64,000 nt of DNA from Hydrogenophilales bacterium CG_4_10_14_3_um_filter_63_21. GTDB taxonomy: Bacteria > Pseudomonadota > Gammaproteobacteria > Burkholderiales > Thiobacillaceae. The position numbers and the translations under genes were made by a program. The notes under the pieces are model-generated. The model had not been told where the DNA came from. It was given only the letters and a program-made list of their open reading frames with translations, and made no database searches. Position 1 is the first letter of the stretch. Each line of letters opens with the position of its first letter. Below are positions 1 to 8,633 of the stretch, piece by piece. Location of the stretch: NCBI GenBank assembly GCA_002784045.1, contig PFJX01000137.1, forward strand, positions 1 through 64,000. The letters run 5' to 3'.

Positions 1-1175
1 CTCCTTGCGGGGCCAGCCCCGCCGCGTCGTCGCGCCTTGCCAGGCAGCCCGAAAACCGCACACTTGGGCGCGTCCAACTGAGCTTTCTAGGTTAAAGAGA
101 TCAGGCAGGGCGAACACCGCCGGGGTGCGCCCGGCGGCTTCGCGCAGGCGCAAGATCAAGCCGGCGGCCAGAATCTGCTTGAGGATGCCGTTCGCGGTGA
201 CGCGGTTTTCTATCCCGGCGTGGTAGGCAAAATCCGTGGCATTCAGAATCGGCCGCACAAAAAAGGCGTCCAGTGCCGGGATGGCGAACTGCGAGTGTGT
301 GGCCTCGATAACCCGCTGTTTCAGCTCGTTGTAGAGCGCCAGTATCTGCCGGGCCTTGGCTAGATTGGCATCCGCCTGCACCACCACCGCCTCAAGAAAG
401 AACTCGACCCAGTTTTGCCACTGGCCGGCTTCCGTGATCGACAGCAAGCCGTCGTAATAGCGGTCGCGGTGGGCCTCCAGATATTCCGAGAGATAAAACA
501 TCGGCCGCGACAAGGTCTTGCGTTGGAACAACAGCAGCGGAATCAGCATCCGCCCGATCCGGCCATTGCCATCCTTGAAGGGGTGCAATATCTCGAACTG
601 CGCATGCGCGACCGCCACCTGGATGGCCGGGTCGTCTTTCTCGGAAGCCAGATAGGCCGCCCACCCCTCCAGCGCCTGCGGCAGTAGCAGCGGGCTCGGC
701 GGCACGAAGCGGGCGTGCTCGATATCCGATCCCGCGAAGCCGATCCAGTTTTGTTCCACCCTGAATTCGCCGGGTTGCTTGTCATGCCCACGCACCCCGT
801 GCATCAAGCGCTGATGCACCCCCTTGATCAGGGAAAGCGACATGGGGCGATGCTCCAGCGCCTGTTCGGCATCGCGCATTGCCGCCCGGTAATTGGCGAT
901 TTCCTCGATGTCGTCATGGCGCGACGGGGCCTGCGCGATACCCGCGTCCTGCTGCAAGACCTCTTCCAGCGTGGCCTGGGTGCCTTCGATCCGCGACGAC
1001 AACACTGCCTCGTTGACCGTGATGGGCGACAACAACACCGCCGGGTTGGTAAGGCCTGCAACATGCCGTCATAGCGCGCCAGCGCCGCGTTAGCCTTGCC
1101 CGCCATAGGTAAAAGACGCTGCCAGTTCAAATCGGAAACCGGCAGTGCCGGCGGAATGCAGGGAGTGCGCGTCAT
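1..1175 (-). pseudogene. Fic family protein, frameshifted and truncated by the window edge
   Basis: N-terminus NWQRLLPMAGKANAALARYDGMLQALP is in one frame; after a 1-nt shift near 1047-1052 the frame continues NPAVLLSPIT... to the Fic motif HPFKDGNGRIGR (about 547-587). Confidence 0.75.
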
Positions 1176-1184
1176 CGATGTCTC

Positions 1185-1307
1185 CTACACCGTCCGGAAC
1201 GTGATGTCGTGCGATTTGGCTTCCAGCACGGCATTGGTCTTGAGCGGGTCGTTGCCGTGGAAGGCGTCGAGCTGGTATGGCTGGTTGGCTTCGAACTTGA
1301 TTTTCAT
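1185..1307 (-). pseudogene. 40-aa chimeric ORF: type III Res N-terminus fused to Mod C-terminus
   Basis: Translation MKIKFEANQPYQLDA/FHGNDPLKTNAVLEAKSHDITFRTV*. First part resembles Res N-termini; second part nearly matches the end of the Mod protein at 1894-3849 (DAAFHGNDPLKTNAVLEAKSHGITFKTV). Confidence 0.75.
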
Positions 1308-1609: not shown

Positions 1610-1623
1610 GGCGGGTCTCCTTG

Positions 1624-1884
1624 CTAAACCAGTGGGTCGATACGGCGGTATTGGCCGGTCGTGCGCAGCGTATTCCAGTCATCCAGCAACTCGGCTTGAT
1701 GCAGCCCGGCCCACTCCACCGCCAGGCTCAAAACGCGCGGCGGCAGTTTGCCTTCCATGATGCCGAGCGACTCAATCAGAATCGCCGCCTCGAAGTCGTT
1801 GTAGCGCACATGGAAATGCGGCGGGTTGTGCTCGCGGAAGTGCATCAGAATCAGGATGCCGAGAAAACGGGAAATTTCGGGCAT
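1624..1884 (-). CDS. DUF4160 domain-containing protein
   Basis: 86 aa MPEISRFLGILILMHFREHNPPHFHVRYNDFEA, typical of DUF4160. Confidence 0.88.
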   Translation of the reverse strand: MPEISRFLGILILMHFREHNPPHFHVRYNDFEAAILIESLGIMEGKLPPRVLSLAVEWAGLHQAELLDDWNTLRTTGQYRRIDPLV

Positions 1885-1893
1885 GGCAAGTCC

Positions 1894-3849
1894 TCAGACG
1901 GTTTTGAACGTAATGCCGTGGGACTTCGCTTCCAGCACGGCATTGGTCTTGAGCGGGTCATTGCCGTGGAAGGCGGCGTCGAGGCAGAGGATTTGCAGTG
2001 GGTCGAGGGCCATCATGCCGCGCAGCAGTGCCTGGGTGACGGGGTTTTCCAGGCAAATAAGCAGGCTGCCGTCGGCAATGGAATGCACGGTTTTTCCAGC
2101 CACGGTCTGGGTTTCCACCTTCGCGGTGAGGGACAGGCCGCTCTTGAGTATCAACTCGTAGAGAACGTCTTGCTGGGTGCGACTTTCGGCCAGGTTGTCG
2201 GTGTAGAGGTGCAGTTGCTCGGCCAGTTGCTCGGGTTCGGTTGCGGCCTGGTCGGCGTCCCAAATCTTGAAGTTGCTGGACGACAGTTTGAAGGCGCGGA
2301 AACCCCGGTCTTGTTTGGCCTTGCCGTCCAGATCCAACTTGCCGACATCGGCTTCGTTCAGCTTGGCGATGACGCGGCGGACACGTTCCCGGGTGAGATG
2401 GGCGATGGTGGGGTATTGCGGGTTGTCGGTTTTCTCGGGGAGCTGGACGAGGATGAATTTACGGTTGCCGCCGTCTTCGTTGTTTTGCTCAATGACGGCT
2501 TGGGCTGTGGTACCGGAGCCGGCGAAGAAGTCGAGCACGATTTCCGGCGGGTTAATTTCTTTATGCGCCTGCCCTTTGACCCGATATTCGGCGGTCATGT
2601 CGCTGACATGAGGTCTGGCGTCCGGTTTCTCTCCCGGGGTGGTGGCGAGTTGCAACATGCGCTTGATGAGCCGGGCCGGCTTGGGCGTATCGAACACGCT
2701 GTCCGAATCGGAAAAAGCAACAAGGCTGATCAAATCTTTCTTGGCTTCCTGGGTATGGCCCACGTCGTCGTAATACCAGAGTGTTTGCGGCACCCGCCCT
2801 TGTTTTACCTCGGACAGAAATATTTTCGGGGCCGGTATGTTGTTCCCGTCGGCACCCCAGTAAATCCGATTGTCCTTGTCCATTGCTCTGAATTTCTCTT
2901 CGGAAACACGCCAATAACTTCCGGTTGGAGGGCCTTCGATCACGCGCCCACCCGGGCAGCGAATTGAATATGTCCACTTGCTGTAATAGTTCCGCGCGGA
3001 CAGATTATTGGGGCGCCAAAGGCCACGCGGGTCGTTATCCGGGTTCTTGTAAACCGCGTTCTGTTCTTCCGTTCGCGCAAGCAGGTTGGGCGTCCAGGTC
3101 GTCGCATATTTCGCGTAGACCAGAACGTAGTCGTGATCTTCCGAGAAATGCCGGGCGCTGCTCTTGGGGGCGTAGTTCTTCTGCCAGATGACCGACGCTA
3201 CAAAATTCTCTTCCCCCAACACCTCGTTCATCAGCATCCTCAAGTTATGCACCTCGTGGTCGTCGATGCTGACGAATATCACCCCGTCGTCCCGCAACAG
3301 ATTCCGCGCCATGAACAGACGCGGATACATCATGTTCAGCCACTTGGAGTGGAAGCGCCCGCTGGTTTCGGTATTGGTGCTCTGCTTGAGGCCTTCCTCG
3401 CTGACCTGCCCCGAATAGCGCAGGTATTCGTCCAGCCCCTCGCGGTAGTTGTCCGGGTAAATGAATTCGTTGCCGGTGTTGTAGGGCGGGTCGATATAAA
3501 TCATCTTGACCTTGCCGTGGTAGCTCTTCTGCAAGAGCTTGAGCACTTCCAGATTGTCGCCCTCGATAATCAGGTTTTCGCTGCTGTCGAAATTGACCGA
3601 CTCGTCCGGCATGGGTAGCAAAGTGCCGACGCTGGGGCTCTGCACGGCGCGGAAGGCTTCTGCTTTGCCGGCCCAAGTGAGGCCGTAGCGTTCCGGGCGG
3701 GTGTCAATCGCTTCACCCAGGGTGGCCTTGAGTTTCTCCCAGTCCACCTTGCCTTCGCTGAAGACATGGGGCGCTTGCTCGCGCAGTTGAGCCAGCAGGG
3801 CTTCGGTGGGGTTGTCGGAGGTCAGCGGTAGCTTGGTGTCGTCGGTCAT
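1894..3849 (-). CDS. mod: Type III restriction-modification system DNA methyltransferase (Mod)
   Basis: 651 aa; DPPYNTGN motif and FAGSGTT SAM-binding motif in beta-class N6 methylase order. Confidence 0.93.
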   Translation of the reverse strand: MTDDTKLPLTSDNPTEALLAQLREQAPHVFSEGKVDWEKLKATLGEAIDTRPERYGLTWAGKAEAFRAVQSPSVGTLLPMPDESVNFDSSENLIIEGDNLEVLKLLQKSYHGKVKMIYIDPPYNTGNEFIYPDNYREGLDEYLRYSGQVSEEGLKQSTNTETSGRFHSKWLNMMYPRLFMARNLLRDDGVIFVSIDDHEVHNLRMLMNEVLGEENFVASVIWQKNYAPKSSARHFSEDHDYVLVYAKYATTWTPNLLARTEEQNAVYKNPDNDPRGLWRPNNLSARNYYSKWTYSIRCPGGRVIEGPPTGSYWRVSEEKFRAMDKDNRIYWGADGNNIPAPKIFLSEVKQGRVPQTLWYYDDVGHTQEAKKDLISLVAFSDSDSVFDTPKPARLIKRMLQLATTPGEKPDARPHVSDMTAEYRVKGQAHKEINPPEIVLDFFAGSGTTAQAVIEQNNEDGGNRKFILVQLPEKTDNPQYPTIAHLTRERVRRVIAKLNEADVGKLDLDGKAKQDRGFRAFKLSSSNFKIWDADQAATEPEQLAEQLHLYTDNLAESRTQQDVLYELILKSGLSLTAKVETQTVAGKTVHSIADGSLLICLENPVTQALLRGMMALDPLQILCLDAAFHGNDPLKTNAVLEAKSHGITFKTV

Positions 3850-3912
3850 TTTGCGGGCGGCTGCGGGCCGATAAGCATTTTGCCGATGCCGGCAAAATGG
3901 GGTGATTTGAAA

Positions 3913-4224
3913 TCAGGCGTGGGTCAGCGTTTTGGTCTCGTCTTCCGACTGCACGAGCAGTTTCTTGCCGCAAGCGGCAAGGTATTTCCTGATTGTGGCA
4001 ATGGAGGGGGAGTGTTTGCCGGAAGCCAGCGCGCCTTCCAGGCGTGCCACTGCCGGGGCCTTGGTGCCCATGCGCAGGGCGACTTCGGCTTGGGTCAGGC
4101 CGGCTTCTTCGCGGGCGGAGAGCAGGATATCGAGCAGTTCCATTTCCGGTTGCAGCCGCTCGTACTCGGTGCGCACCGCCGGGCCTTCCAGCATCCGGGC
4201 CTTGAATTTTTTATGCGTCAGCAT
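3913..4224 (-). CDS. XRE/HTH antitoxin of a HigA-like toxin-antitoxin pair
   Basis: MLTHKKFKARMLEGPAVRTEYERL...LLSAREEAGLTQAEVALRMGTKAPAVARLEGAL; 14-bp overlap with the upstream toxin. Confidence 0.85.
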   Translation of the reverse strand: MLTHKKFKARMLEGPAVRTEYERLQPEMELLDILLSAREEAGLTQAEVALRMGTKAPAVARLEGALASGKHSPSIATIRKYLAACGKKLLVQSEDETKTLTHA

Positions 4225-4740
4225 TTTCAATCTCCTTCTGTCGCTGGCGAGCCAGCTTGAGCTCGCGGGCGGGGGGCTTCTGTGACTTCTCCACGAAGCC
4301 ATGCAACATGACTATGCGGCGTCCAATCCGCGTGCAATAGAACACGCGGGCTATGCCTTCCGCACCCTTCAACCGCAACTCGAACAACCCTTCGCCGAAC
4401 GCTTTGGTATGCGGCTCGCGCAGGTTGGGGCCGTGGATTTCCATGCGGTCGGTAAGCTGGAAGTAGCGCGCCTTCAAAGTGGCTGGCAGTGCCGCAATAT
4501 CTAGCCCGGATATTGCATGAATTCGCGTGATGCCCTAAAGGATACCGGGCTGCGCCCGTAATCGCGCAGGCCATTGTTTGCAATGGGAATTTTGCGAAGG
4601 AGCGGCGTAGTTATTCATACGCCCGACTGAGCAAGACTTTCCAGTGCGGACAAGGGACCAGCGAGGGCGCGCGAGTATTCATGCAATATCCGGGCTAGCT
4701 GAACGGCTTCGCTGTAGTAGTAGATTTCGTAGGGCGCTAC
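4211..4740 (-). pseudogene. RelE/HigB (Gp49-like) toxin interrupted by a MITE
   Basis: Distal part ORF 4211-4477 (KARYFQLTDRMEIHGPNLREPHTKAFGEGLFELRLKG...GIARVFYC). Removing 4505-4694 plus one CTAG gives YEIYYYSEAVQLDIAALPATLKARYF in one frame. Confidence 0.75.
4505..4694. mobile_element. MITE-like non-autonomous element, 190 bp
   Basis: 18-bp perfect terminal inverted repeats CCCGGATATTGCATGAAT...ATTCATGCAATATCCGGG flanked by CTAG/CTAG (4501-4504, 4695-4698); no coding capacity. Confidence 0.85.
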
Positions 4741-4749
4741 AGGTGGGGC

Positions 4750-4777
4750 ATATTAACAAATATGTTATCAATATCAA
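4750..4777 (-). promoter_or_regulatory. Predicted promoter/operator of the toxin-antitoxin locus
   Basis: Minus strand TTGATA (4772-4777), 16-nt spacer, TAATAT (4750-4755); inverted repeat TAACA-N4-TGTTA at 4754-4767 overlaps the -10 edge and spacer. Confidence 0.5.
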
Positions 4778-4794
4778 GGTGGGTTGGCAGCCAA

Positions 4795-5289
4795 CTAGGC
4801 CAAAAGCCAACGCAGGGTGAACAGTGGCAGCAGGCTGTGCTGCTGTTTGAGCCTGGAGACAAGCCGCGATTGTCGGCCACGATAATCAATGCCGCCTTGG
4901 TGTCGGCGGTGCGGGAGCCGGAGACATAAGGGGAGCCACGGTGTCGCGCCAGCCAGTCCGGGTAAATCCGGGTGGAAAGCGGGTCGGCGTTGCTGCCCCT
5001 GCTTGCGCAGGGTGGCCGGCAATATCAGCAGGATTTTCCGGCGCCGTTCGGCCCAGCGCTGGCTAATGACGATGCCGGCTTCAATGGTTTTGCCCAGCCC
5101 CACTTCGTCGGCCAGGATGACGCCCTTGGAAAGCGGCGAGCGCAGCGCAAACAGGGCGGCATCGACCTGGTGCGGGTTCAGGTCAACCCGCGCGGAGGCG
5201 ATCGAGCCGGACAGGCGTTCCAGTGAGTCATTCACCCCCCTGAGTGTGAGCGCCGCTGCCCAGTATTTGCTGTGGTATGGCGTGGACAA
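4795..5289 (-). pseudogene. SNF2-family helicase remnant with internal deletion
   Basis: N-part ...VDLNPHQVDAALFALRSPLSKGVILADEVGLGKTIEAGIVISQRWAERRRKILLILPATLRKQ, then shifted frame SNADPLSTRIYPDWLARHRGSPYVSGSRTADTKAALI (C-terminal helicase segment). Confidence 0.8.
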
Positions 5290-5372
5290 CGTTTCTGGTG
5301 CTCATGGGTTGGCTGCCCATCGCAGGTGAGTTTGTGCGCGTCGGACAAACCGCCTGAAAGTTCCCTGAATAC

Positions 5373-5532: not shown

Positions 5533-6558
5533 ATGAAAACCAGCGACTTCGAATACACCCTGCCGGACGAGCTTATCGCCCGGCATCCTCTGGCCGAGCG
5601 CACGGCCAGTCGCCTGTTGCACGTGGATGGGCCGGGCAAGTGCTTCGCGGACCGCTTATTCAACGAATTGCCCACTTTCTTCCGCCCCGGCGACCTGCTG
5701 GTGTTCAACGACACCCGCGTCATCAAGGCGCGCCTGCATGGCCAGAAGGACAGCGGCGGCAAAGTGGAGGCGCTGGTGGAACGCATCGTCAGCGACCATG
5801 AAGCCCTGCTGCACCTGCGCGCCAGCAAGCCACCGAAGCCGGACAGCGTGCTGCTGTTCGCCGGGGCGATTCAGGCACGGGTGCTGGGGCGCGAGGGGGA
5901 GTTGTTCCGCCTGGCGTTCGATCCCGCCCGCACCGTACTGGAATGGCTGGAACACTACGGCGAGATTCCGCTGCCGCCGTATCTGCACCGGCCGGCGGAA
6001 GCCGACGACGATGCCCGTTATCAGACCGTGTATGCGCGCGATCCGGGTGCGGTCGCCGCGCCGACCGCTGGCTTGCATTTCGATGAGGCCATGCTGGCGC
6101 GCTTGCGCGAACTGGGTGTGAGCAGCGCTTTCGTGACCCTGCATGTCGGTGCCGGCACCTTTCAGCCGGTGCGCGAGGAGAACCTGGCGGATCACAAAAT
6201 GCACAGTGAACGCTATGTGGTTCCGCCGGAAACCGTGGCGGCCATGGCAGCTACGCGCGCGGCGGGTGGCCGGGTCGGCGCGGTCGGTACCACCAGTCTG
6301 CGCGCCCTGGAATCCGCCGCGCGCGATGGGGTGCTGCGCGCGGGGGGCGGTGAAACCGAGCTGTTCATCACCCCGGGCTACCACTTCAACGTGGTGGATC
6401 GCCTGGTCACCAATTTCCATCTGCCGCGCTCCACCCTGCTGATGCTGGTCTGCGCCTTCGGCGGCATGGATCTGTCACTACGCGCCTACGCCCACGCCGT
6501 AGCCGAGCACTACCGCTTCTTCAGTTACGGCGATGCGCTGCTGATCGAGCGGGCGTAG
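5533..6558 (+). CDS. queA: S-adenosylmethionine:tRNA ribosyltransferase-isomerase
   Basis: [29 protein letters not shown]...[34 protein letters not shown]. Confidence 0.96.
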
Positions 6559-6605
6559 TGGCGCCGGCTTCCCGCCGGCTTGCCGGCTGGACGCCGGCGC
6601 TACAC
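6555..6605. repeat. REP-like palindromic repeat (GTAGCGCCGGC family)
   Basis: gcgtagtggcgccggcttcccgccggcttgccggctggacgccggcgctacac; supplies the queA stop codon. Confidence 0.8.
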
Positions 6606-7022
6606 AGCACCGCGTTGCCGGCCGAGTGGGCTGGTTTCGGGTTGGCCCCAGGTTGGTCAATTTGTACAACCACAGGAAAATCAATGGCTTCCGCGCATGG
6701 GTTCACGTATAGTGCGCGCCGTTGTGCAACGCAGTAGTCGGCTTCCCGCTCATTTGCCAGGTCTCCTGGCTGGGGTTTCAAGCCCACGGGACTGTTTTCA
6801 CAGCCCCATCGTCCCGACCTCACCTGATCCTTTCACGGAAACGTTTTCCGTCGATTCGGCTTCGCGGCATTCGGTTGGCGCCGATGTTTCGCGAGAATCG
6901 ACGCGCCCAGCATCGTGGCGCGAGCGTTTCTGTTTTTGCGTCCCTACCCTCTCCTGGGCGGACGCGGTTGCTTTTTGCCCGCGCCAAACCGAATGGCGGG
7001 CAGGGGCTTTGAAAGGATTTGT

Positions 7023-8633
7023 ATGACCTTCGCTACTTTGGGCCTCAACCCCCTTGTTCTCAAATGCCTGGAAACCACCGGCTACACCGTCCCCACCGAG
7101 GTGCAGCGCCAGGCGGTGCCGGCCGCGCTGGAAGGGCGCGATCTGCTGGTTTCCAGCCACACCGGCAGCGGCAAGACCGCGGCCTTCCTGTTGCCCAGCC
7201 TGCACCGGCTGGCCGAGCCATCCCAGCTCCCTGGAGCAGACAAAATCCAGGGCCCGCGCCTGCTGGTGCTTTGCCCCACCCGAGAACTCGCCTTGCAGGT
7301 GCAAAAGCAGGCCATGATCTATGGTGCCGGCCTGCGCCGCCTGCGCACTGTCTGTCTGGTCGGCGGCGCCCCGTTCGGCCCGCAGTTTCAGGCACTCAAG
7401 GTGAATCCGGAAGTAATGATCGCCACCCCCGGCCGCCTGATCGACCATCTGGAACGTGGCCGCCTCGACTTCTCGCGCCTGGAAGTGCTGGTGCTGGACG
7501 AAGCCGACCGTATGCTGGACATGGGCTTCATCGAGGACATCGAGCATATCGTCTCGCGCACCCCGGAAAACCGCCAGACCCTGCTGTTCTCCGCCACGCT
7601 GGACGGCATGGTGGGCAAGATCGCCGCCCAGTTGACCAACAACCCGTTGCGCGTCGAAGTGGCGACCCAGGAAGAGCACAAGGCCAATATCGACCAGCGC
7701 ATCCTGTTCTCCGACGACATCGGCCACAAGCACCGCCTCCTCGACGCGCTGTTGCGCGATGCGGACCTGACCCAGGCGCTGATTTTCACCGCCACCAAAC
7801 GCAGCGCCGAGGAACTCTCGGAAACCCTGCTGGAAAAGGGCTTTTCCGCCGCCGCGCTGCATGGCGACATGCCGCAGCACAAGCGCACCCGCACGCTGCA
7901 ACGCGTGCGTGATGGCCAGATTCGCATCCTGGTAGCCACCGACGTGGCGGCGCGTGGCATCGACGTCGCCGGCATCAGCCACGTCATCAACTTCGACGCG
8001 CCGCGCCAGGCGGAAGATTACGTGCATCGCATCGGCCGCACCGGCCGCGCCGGCCGTTCCGGCATCGCCATCACGATGGTGCATGGCAAGGAACGCCATC
8101 TGGTACGCGAAATCGAGCGCTACCTCGGCCAGAGCGTACGTGTCGAGGTGATCCCCGGCCTGGAGCCGAGCCCGCGCGCCGAGCGTAGTTTCGACAAGAA
8201 TCGCGGCGGCAAGGGCGGCTACGGCAACAAGAGTGCTGGCTACGGCCGCGGTTCTGGCGGTCAGAAAGCCAGTTACTTTGACAAGCCGGCTGGCGAGCGG
8301 ACCTGGGGCGAAAAGAAGTGGAGTGAAAAACCAAACGACCGGCCGCGCGGCGAGTACCAGGGCCGCGGCCAGGGTTATGGCCAGCGCGATATTCCGGCGC
8401 CGCGCCATGACGATGACAACCGGGGCAACTCCATCAACTATGGCGCCGGCCATGCACCAAGCCGGCCGGCACGCGATGGCAACACCTGGGCCAAGCCGGA
8501 AGTCCGTGCCGTCGCCAAGGACGGCAATCATTGGGGCAACAAGTCCGATCCGCGCCCGGCGTTCAAGAGCGTCCCCCGTAGCGATGACCGCCGTCCCGCC
8601 GCCGCCAAGCCACACGGTCGCCAGAGCTGGTAA
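7023..8633 (+). CDS. rhlE: DEAD/DEAH-box RNA helicase, RhlE-like, with Gly/Arg/Lys-rich C-terminal tail
   Basis: Motifs SHTGSGKTAAF, PTRELALQV, TPGRLIDHLERG, VLDEADRMLDMGF, SAT, HRIGRTGRAGR. Confidence 0.92.
   Translation: MTFATLGLNPLVLKCLETTGYTVPTEVQRQAVPAALEGRDLLVSSHTGSGKTAAFLLPSLHRLAEPSQLPGADKIQGPRLLVLCPTRELALQVQKQAMIYGAGLRRLRTVCLVGGAPFGPQFQALKVNPEVMIATPGRLIDHLERGRLDFSRLEVLVLDEADRMLDMGFIEDIEHIVSRTPENRQTLLFSATLDGMVGKIAAQLTNNPLRVEVATQEEHKANIDQRILFSDDIGHKHRLLDALLRDADLTQALIFTATKRSAEELSETLLEKGFSAAALHGDMPQHKRTRTLQRVRDGQIRILVATDVAARGIDVAGISHVINFDAPRQAEDYVHRIGRTGRAGRSGIAITMVHGKERHLVREIERYLGQSVRVEVIPGLEPSPRAERSFDKNRGGKGGYGNKSAGYGRGSGGQKASYFDKPAGERTWGEKKWSEKPNDRPRGEYQGRGQGYGQRDIPAPRHDDDNRGNSINYGAGHAPSRPARDGNTWAKPEVRAVAKDGNHWGNKSDPRPAFKSVPRSDDRRPAAAKPHGRQSW

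Follow-up and report, generated by a model that had tools for sequence, protein, structure and literature searches.

A restriction-modification operon at the end of a contig raises two questions: what is a 40-codon open reading frame (ORF) doing between its accessory genes, and where is its res gene? The stretch of DNA analysed, referred to as the window, comprises positions 1 to 64,000 of contig C126, position 1 being an end of the contig. The genes of the operon that lie in the window are all on the minus strand. It begins with mod, encoding a type III methyltransferase of 651 aa (1894-3849; Pfam N6_N4_Mtase, E 9.4e-35; PADLOC MTase_III, E 8.5e-196). This gene is followed by a first cargo module of two genes, DUF4160 (1624-1884; Pfam PF13711, E 7.2e-21) and DUF2442 (1304-1609; Pfam PF10387, E 4.1e-13), then by the 40-aa ORF (1185-1307), and finally by a second cargo, a fic gene of the SoFic type (92-1175; Pfam Fic and Fic_N; PADLOC SoFic, E 4.9e-98). 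An earlier note on this DNA had described the ORF as a chimera of a Res N-terminus and a Mod C-terminus.

The ORF reads MKIKFEANQPYQLDAFHGNDPLKTNAVLEAKSHDITFRTV followed by a stop codon. Its first 15 codons (45 nt; 1263-1307, minus strand) stem from the beginning of a type III res and are fused in frame to 78 nt of the 3' end of a foreign-looking mod (1185-1262, minus strand; 25 codons plus stop). These 45 nt agree at 42 positions with the beginning of a res gene located on another contig, C99, and the last 78 nt are identical at 65 positions to the tail of the local mod. A search of the whole own genome matched the ORF only to itself, to the C-terminus of the local Mod (28 aa, 93%, E 1.8e-11) and to the N-terminal end of a Res frame of 913 codons on C99. 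The local-alignment scores were 81 for the res start and 111 for the mod tail, compared with shuffled maxima of 29 and 28, respectively. With both matches far above the shuffled controls, the chimeric nature of the ORF is borne out. So are two further details of the earlier note: the start of the ORF overlaps the stop codon of DUF2442 as ATGA, which can be read directly in the sequence, and over 25 aa the scar differs from the local Mod tail at two residues (D/G and R/K).

The same note had held that res is absent beside an intact mod and that the chimera explains this absence. Neither statement survived inspection of the contig end. Window positions 1-91 belong to a multi-copy MITE-like repeat, of which they constitute one end (terminal sequence CCTAGAAAGCTCAGTTG); this end is present at 42 places in the own genome. 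The opposite repeat end, which has the terminal sequence CCTAGAAAGCTCAGTTG and is present at 40 places, lies at positions 11751-11839 of C99 (L016 6752-6840). There are about 40 copies of the window 1-91 repeat in the 3-Mb genome, and the majority lie at contig ends; the repeat accounts for many of the contig breaks in the assembly. Related full copies on other contigs are about 230-310 bp long and carry the two ends in the same order and orientation. The element has the attributes of a MITE, i.e. shared ends that form terminal inverted repeats, a target duplication, multiple copies, a short length and no gene, the fic copy being represented by its two ends and its duplication being imperfect. 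There, the two sides disagree in the middle base of TTNAA, presumably a 5-bp target duplication (TTTAA versus TTCAA, in the sense of fic); identical duplications flank the full copies L158 and L159.

Directly beside the repeat, C99 contains a frame ending in NIAEGRKVIG and a stop codon, which resembles the ends of other Fic proteins (NIAEGRRIL in L120 and NLAEGREVL in L119). This fic end is followed by a complete res gene of 888 aa that has a TTG start and shares nearly all of its first 45 nt with the scar. Its product contains the ResIII (PF04851) and RE_endonuc (PF19778) domains of Pfam and matches PADLOC REase_III (4.7e-279). Since the fic end and res are located on C99 behind the other half of the repeat, the operon would have the order mod-DUF4160-DUF2442-[scar]-fic-res. 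We infer from these sequences that fic was cut by a single repeat copy and that C126 and C99 are adjacent, which would place res in the same operon as mod. Judged by their domains, an N6_N4 methylase domain in Mod and helicase and endonuclease domains in Res, the two genes qualify as a predicted type III restriction-modification system. Between the fic end and res on C99 (L016 6600-6740) there is a stretch of about 170 bp with repeated CTTGTGTTAA and TTAACACAA words, which may serve as a separate, regulated promoter of res.

The fic gene itself retains the catalytic motif HPFxxGNGRxxR in the form HPFKDGNGRIGR, as well as the N-terminal inhibitory motif SSRIEG, both read in translation. The gene is doubly broken: it contains a frameshift near position 1050 (1040-1060, minus strand), and its C-terminus is cut by the repeat, the last codons being present on C99. 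As read from its sequence, fic is a double pseudogene that decayed after its acquisition, and thus a remnant rather than a working SoFic.

We consider it highly probable that the 40-aa ORF is the scar of a recombination in which a mod'-fic-res' operon was joined into a mod-DUF4160-DUF2442-res operon, so that cargo was stacked while mod and res were kept. A resident operon of the latter order would have received DNA of a diverged type III operon of the former. At the left boundary, very short homology would have linked the initial 45 nt of res in the resident operon to the 3' end of mod' in the incoming DNA. The right boundary would lie within res or past it, and probably came about by normal homologous recombination. 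The resulting operon, mod-DUF4160-DUF2442-[res5'::mod3']-fic-res, would contain one whole mod, one whole res and two cargo modules. As mod would stem whole from one operon and res whole from the other, the cargo would have been added at no cost to the core genes. The frameshift and the insertion of the MITE-like element into fic would have come later, and it is this insertion that would break the assembly.

Both parental gene orders exist in relatives. The search for an ancestral mod-DUF4160-DUF2442-res order, proposed in the earlier note, was successful: it is found in two Gallionellaceae genomes (L053 and L054), in which DUF2442 and res overlap as ATGA just as DUF2442 and the ORF do in the window. 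This shared junction indicates that the start codon of the 40-aa ORF is the old res start, still in place. The order mod-fic-res is found in a genome from the same order as the window genome (L119, genome G324), and its fic is not accompanied by an ORF resembling the 40-aa one. The DUF4160 proteins of the window and of L053 share 78% identity, whereas the adjoining mods share only 37%, which indicates that the DUF4160 cargo is passed between type III operons that have diverged from each other.

The joint was examined at the nucleotide level. The 9-nt sequence CTCGACGCC, which had been proposed as homology shared by both parents, is present in the scar and in the local mod; the res on C99 reads CTCGACGCT. 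The local mod contains one extra Ala codon (GCC) after CTCGACGCC, giving CTCGACGCCGCCTTC where the scar has CTCGACGCCTTC. If the register of the mod tail is strictly kept, the homology at the joint amounts to 4 nt (CGCC); it amounts to 9 nt if one GCC slipped (a 3-nt slip) or if the donor did not have that GCC. Given the extra GCC in mod and the CTCGACGCT of the present res, a 9-nt joint thus requires a slip or a slightly different donor. In L124, CTCGACGCC occurs both near the mod end and at the res start, and the motif is intrinsic to the mod/res subfamily to which the window and L124 belong. The proposal of a microhomology joint therefore stands insofar as short homology is present at an in-frame joint, but CTCGACGCC is not found in the resident res and the strict homology is 4 nt.

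A joint of this kind is known from homology-facilitated illegitimate recombination (HFIR) in natural transformation, in which foreign DNA is joined at 3-10 bp on one side (PMC6382021). At 4 nt, or 9 nt if a slip is allowed, the joint seen here falls within this range. The expected HFIR product is a short duplication together with a chimeric joint (PMC6382021), and the res start is duplicated here, as would be expected. HFIR is known from laboratory transformation, whereas the present case is a natural defence operon that is read from its sequence. Because the joint is short, HFIR during DNA uptake fits, and we infer that the scar arose in a single event, through HFIR or an equivalent unequal exchange.

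The mod-derived part of the scar bears on where the second mod came from. In sequence, the scar tail resembles the mod of L124, which belongs to another genus (69/78 nt), more than it resembles the local mod (65/78 nt). Compared with the local mod, it contains eight synonymous and two nonsynonymous codon differences, while about nine nonsynonymous ones are expected from random change of equal extent (0/5000 simulations yielded so few nonsynonymous codons). The low number of nonsynonymous differences indicates that the tail diverged as part of a working mod before it was joined, and judged by its sequence it looks foreign. The earlier idea that a second mod-like copy once existed is thus right in that a second, diverged mod was involved. 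Its residence in this genome is not needed, however, and no second mod of the window subfamily was found in the own genome. For both the window mod and the C99 res, the closest related operons are L124-L127, which places them in one subfamily. Three of these operons (L125-L127) are plain mod-res, and L124 carries MntA/HepT. A second type III-like locus is present on contig C11 (6500-15500, L189; about 1620-5321 therein, minus strand). It has a mod of a different type and is decayed, with its mod in pieces and its res lacking the N-terminus; on account of its mod type it was rejected as donor of the scar tail. When 369 genomes of the class were searched with the junction DNA, no donor operon was found.

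A diverged second mod is also what the best-surviving alternative calls for. According to this alternative the genome once carried a tandem pair, mod-DUF4160-DUF2442-res1 and mod2-fic-res2, and a deletion removed everything from the res1 start to the mod2 end. The end product would be identical, and the scar tail would be that of the second mod. Such a deletion needs an extra intermediate, though, and no second mod of the subfamily is left, the only other locus seen being the decayed one of a different kind on C11. Moreover, an unsystematic look at the retrieved operons revealed no two type III systems in direct tandem. We therefore regard a tandem deletion as unlikely, and prefer the joining of an incoming mod'-fic-res' operon into the resident one.

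A second scar was found in G530 (L120), a genome assembled in two contigs. Its operon has the order mod-DUF1016-[20-aa ORF]-fic-res, so that here too the ORF lies between two cargo modules of which fic is the second. The 20-aa ORF (MKLKFKTQALLSLGTEVKSI and a stop codon) reads MKLKFKTQA up to the joint and LLSLGTEVKSI after it. It matches its own res start at 26/28 nt and its own mod tail at 27/33 nt, and neither score was reached in 2000 shuffles. The differences from its own mod tail are mostly synonymous (P 0.0016), and little or no microhomology is visible at its joint. The scar in G530 is independent of that in the window, and res5'::mod3' stacking is hence rare but recurrent.

How rare it is can be judged from a survey of type III operons from the order, the class, the phylum and plasmids, of which 87 contained both mod and res (one plasmid operon, L199/L213, was counted twice). 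The gap between mod and res was below 200 bp in 39/87 operons. It was at least 500 bp in 45/87, about half, which is an upper bound as the mod end was misjudged in a few frameshifted genes. Matches to both the own res start and the own mod end were present between mod and res in only two operons, i.e. two of about 45 that bear cargo. In the first scan, the remaining 28 operons with cargo gave no such double match, and no third full scar was detected across the 87 operons. L208, L206, L157, L129, L167, L202 and L207 each gave one marginal match, with a score that equalled or barely exceeded the shuffled maximum; these were not counted. In L170 (G301) a second, partial copy of the mod tail (about 26/29 nt), without a res part, lies just after mod and before a RhuM-like cargo; it is a possible scar of a different kind of cargo arrival. 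According to Pfam, the cargo found between mod and res includes DarT, DUF1016/YhcG nuclease, MntA/HepT, Phd/ParE, AlbA_2, RhuM-Fic, DUF3800 and AAA ATPases. The DarT gene of L133 (G516) is located at 6506-7156 (plus strand), and the partner region that follows it looks frame-disrupted. No direct description of cargo between mod and res was found in the open-access literature; the subscription literature may differ.

The earlier note had also suggested that the ORF could be a retained micropeptide; one conceivable role would be that of an antitoxin of the adjoining SoFic. The frame is open and translationally coupled, and a 47-aa antitoxin, AS1, adjoins Sofic in E. coli (PMC12249575). AS1 is however encoded downstream of its gene and the 40-aa ORF upstream, so that the two are not comparable, and all 40 aa are explained by the Res and Mod pieces. 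In addition, the fic of G324 does without such an ORF, that of the window is broken, and Fic has an inhibitory motif (SSRIEG) of its own. The 40 aa were not found as an independent family unrelated to Res in 100 relatives, in plasmids or in the own genome; the ORF is absent from these relatives, and the scar in G530 has a different, 20-aa sequence. A functional micropeptide is accordingly very improbable. The ORF is probably translated, because it inherited the coupled start of res, and presumably has no function of its own.

Even less probable is the original proposal that recombination with a second mod copy destroyed res and left an orphan mod: a former res start has given way to the chimera and no res stands beside mod within the window, but the complete res behind the fic end on C99 largely refutes it. 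An equally faint chance attaches to an assembly chimera of misjoined mod and res reads, for although the assembly is a draft of 174 contigs with a contig break 1.2 kb away, that break is at position 1 and not at the junction, the tail differs from the local mod at 13/78 nt and has no other match in the assembly, so that it was not copied from local reads, and an independent scar exists in the two-contig genome G530.

Taken by itself, the scar in the window would be ordinary recombination; the main interest lies in its recurrence and in the stacking model. Gene order alone usually has to serve for guessing how restriction operons acquired their nested defence genes; here the seam itself is preserved. 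With both parental orders present in relatives and a second, independent seam, the case is not a one-off. Tentatively, and with more doubt than belief, we suggest that the mod-res gap of type III operons might be a general slot for defence cargo, stacked by repeated exchanges between res starts and mod ends that are each marked by a short res5'::mod3' frame. If so, scars would reveal the order of cargo acquisition from the sequence. Such joining predicts a signature that can be searched for: a short ORF with a res-like start and a mod-like end, located between two cargo modules.

The operon can be compared with several known systems. Like type III operons of the EcoP1/EcoP15 type (mod-res), it combines a mod and a res with standard domains in one operon, and unlike these it has mod and res separated by two cargo modules and a chimeric scar. 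A precedent for an accessory defence gene embedded in a restriction-modification locus is PrrC, which is held in the type IC locus ecoprrI (PMC12707154). Both loci contain a toxin-like defence gene, but the type of restriction-modification system differs, and the operon described here has two cargo modules, the arrival of the second being readable from the scar. The second cargo belongs to the family of SoFic (PADLOC SoFic), a single-gene anti-phage defence (Sofic; PMC12249575), the window copy differing in being a pseudogene inside a type III operon.

Directly upstream of mod, and in the same direction, are genes for a Gp49-like (HigB-type) protein and an HTH protein (3913-4477, minus strand), which are likely a toxin-antitoxin pair. 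Further upstream (4795-5289, minus strand), the first ~100 aa of an SNF2-type helicase, with DrmD as best PADLOC match, are followed by unrelated sequence. In two plasmid type III operons (L183 and L184), mod is closely preceded by a complete SNF2 gene, so this piece may be the remnant of a longer operon.
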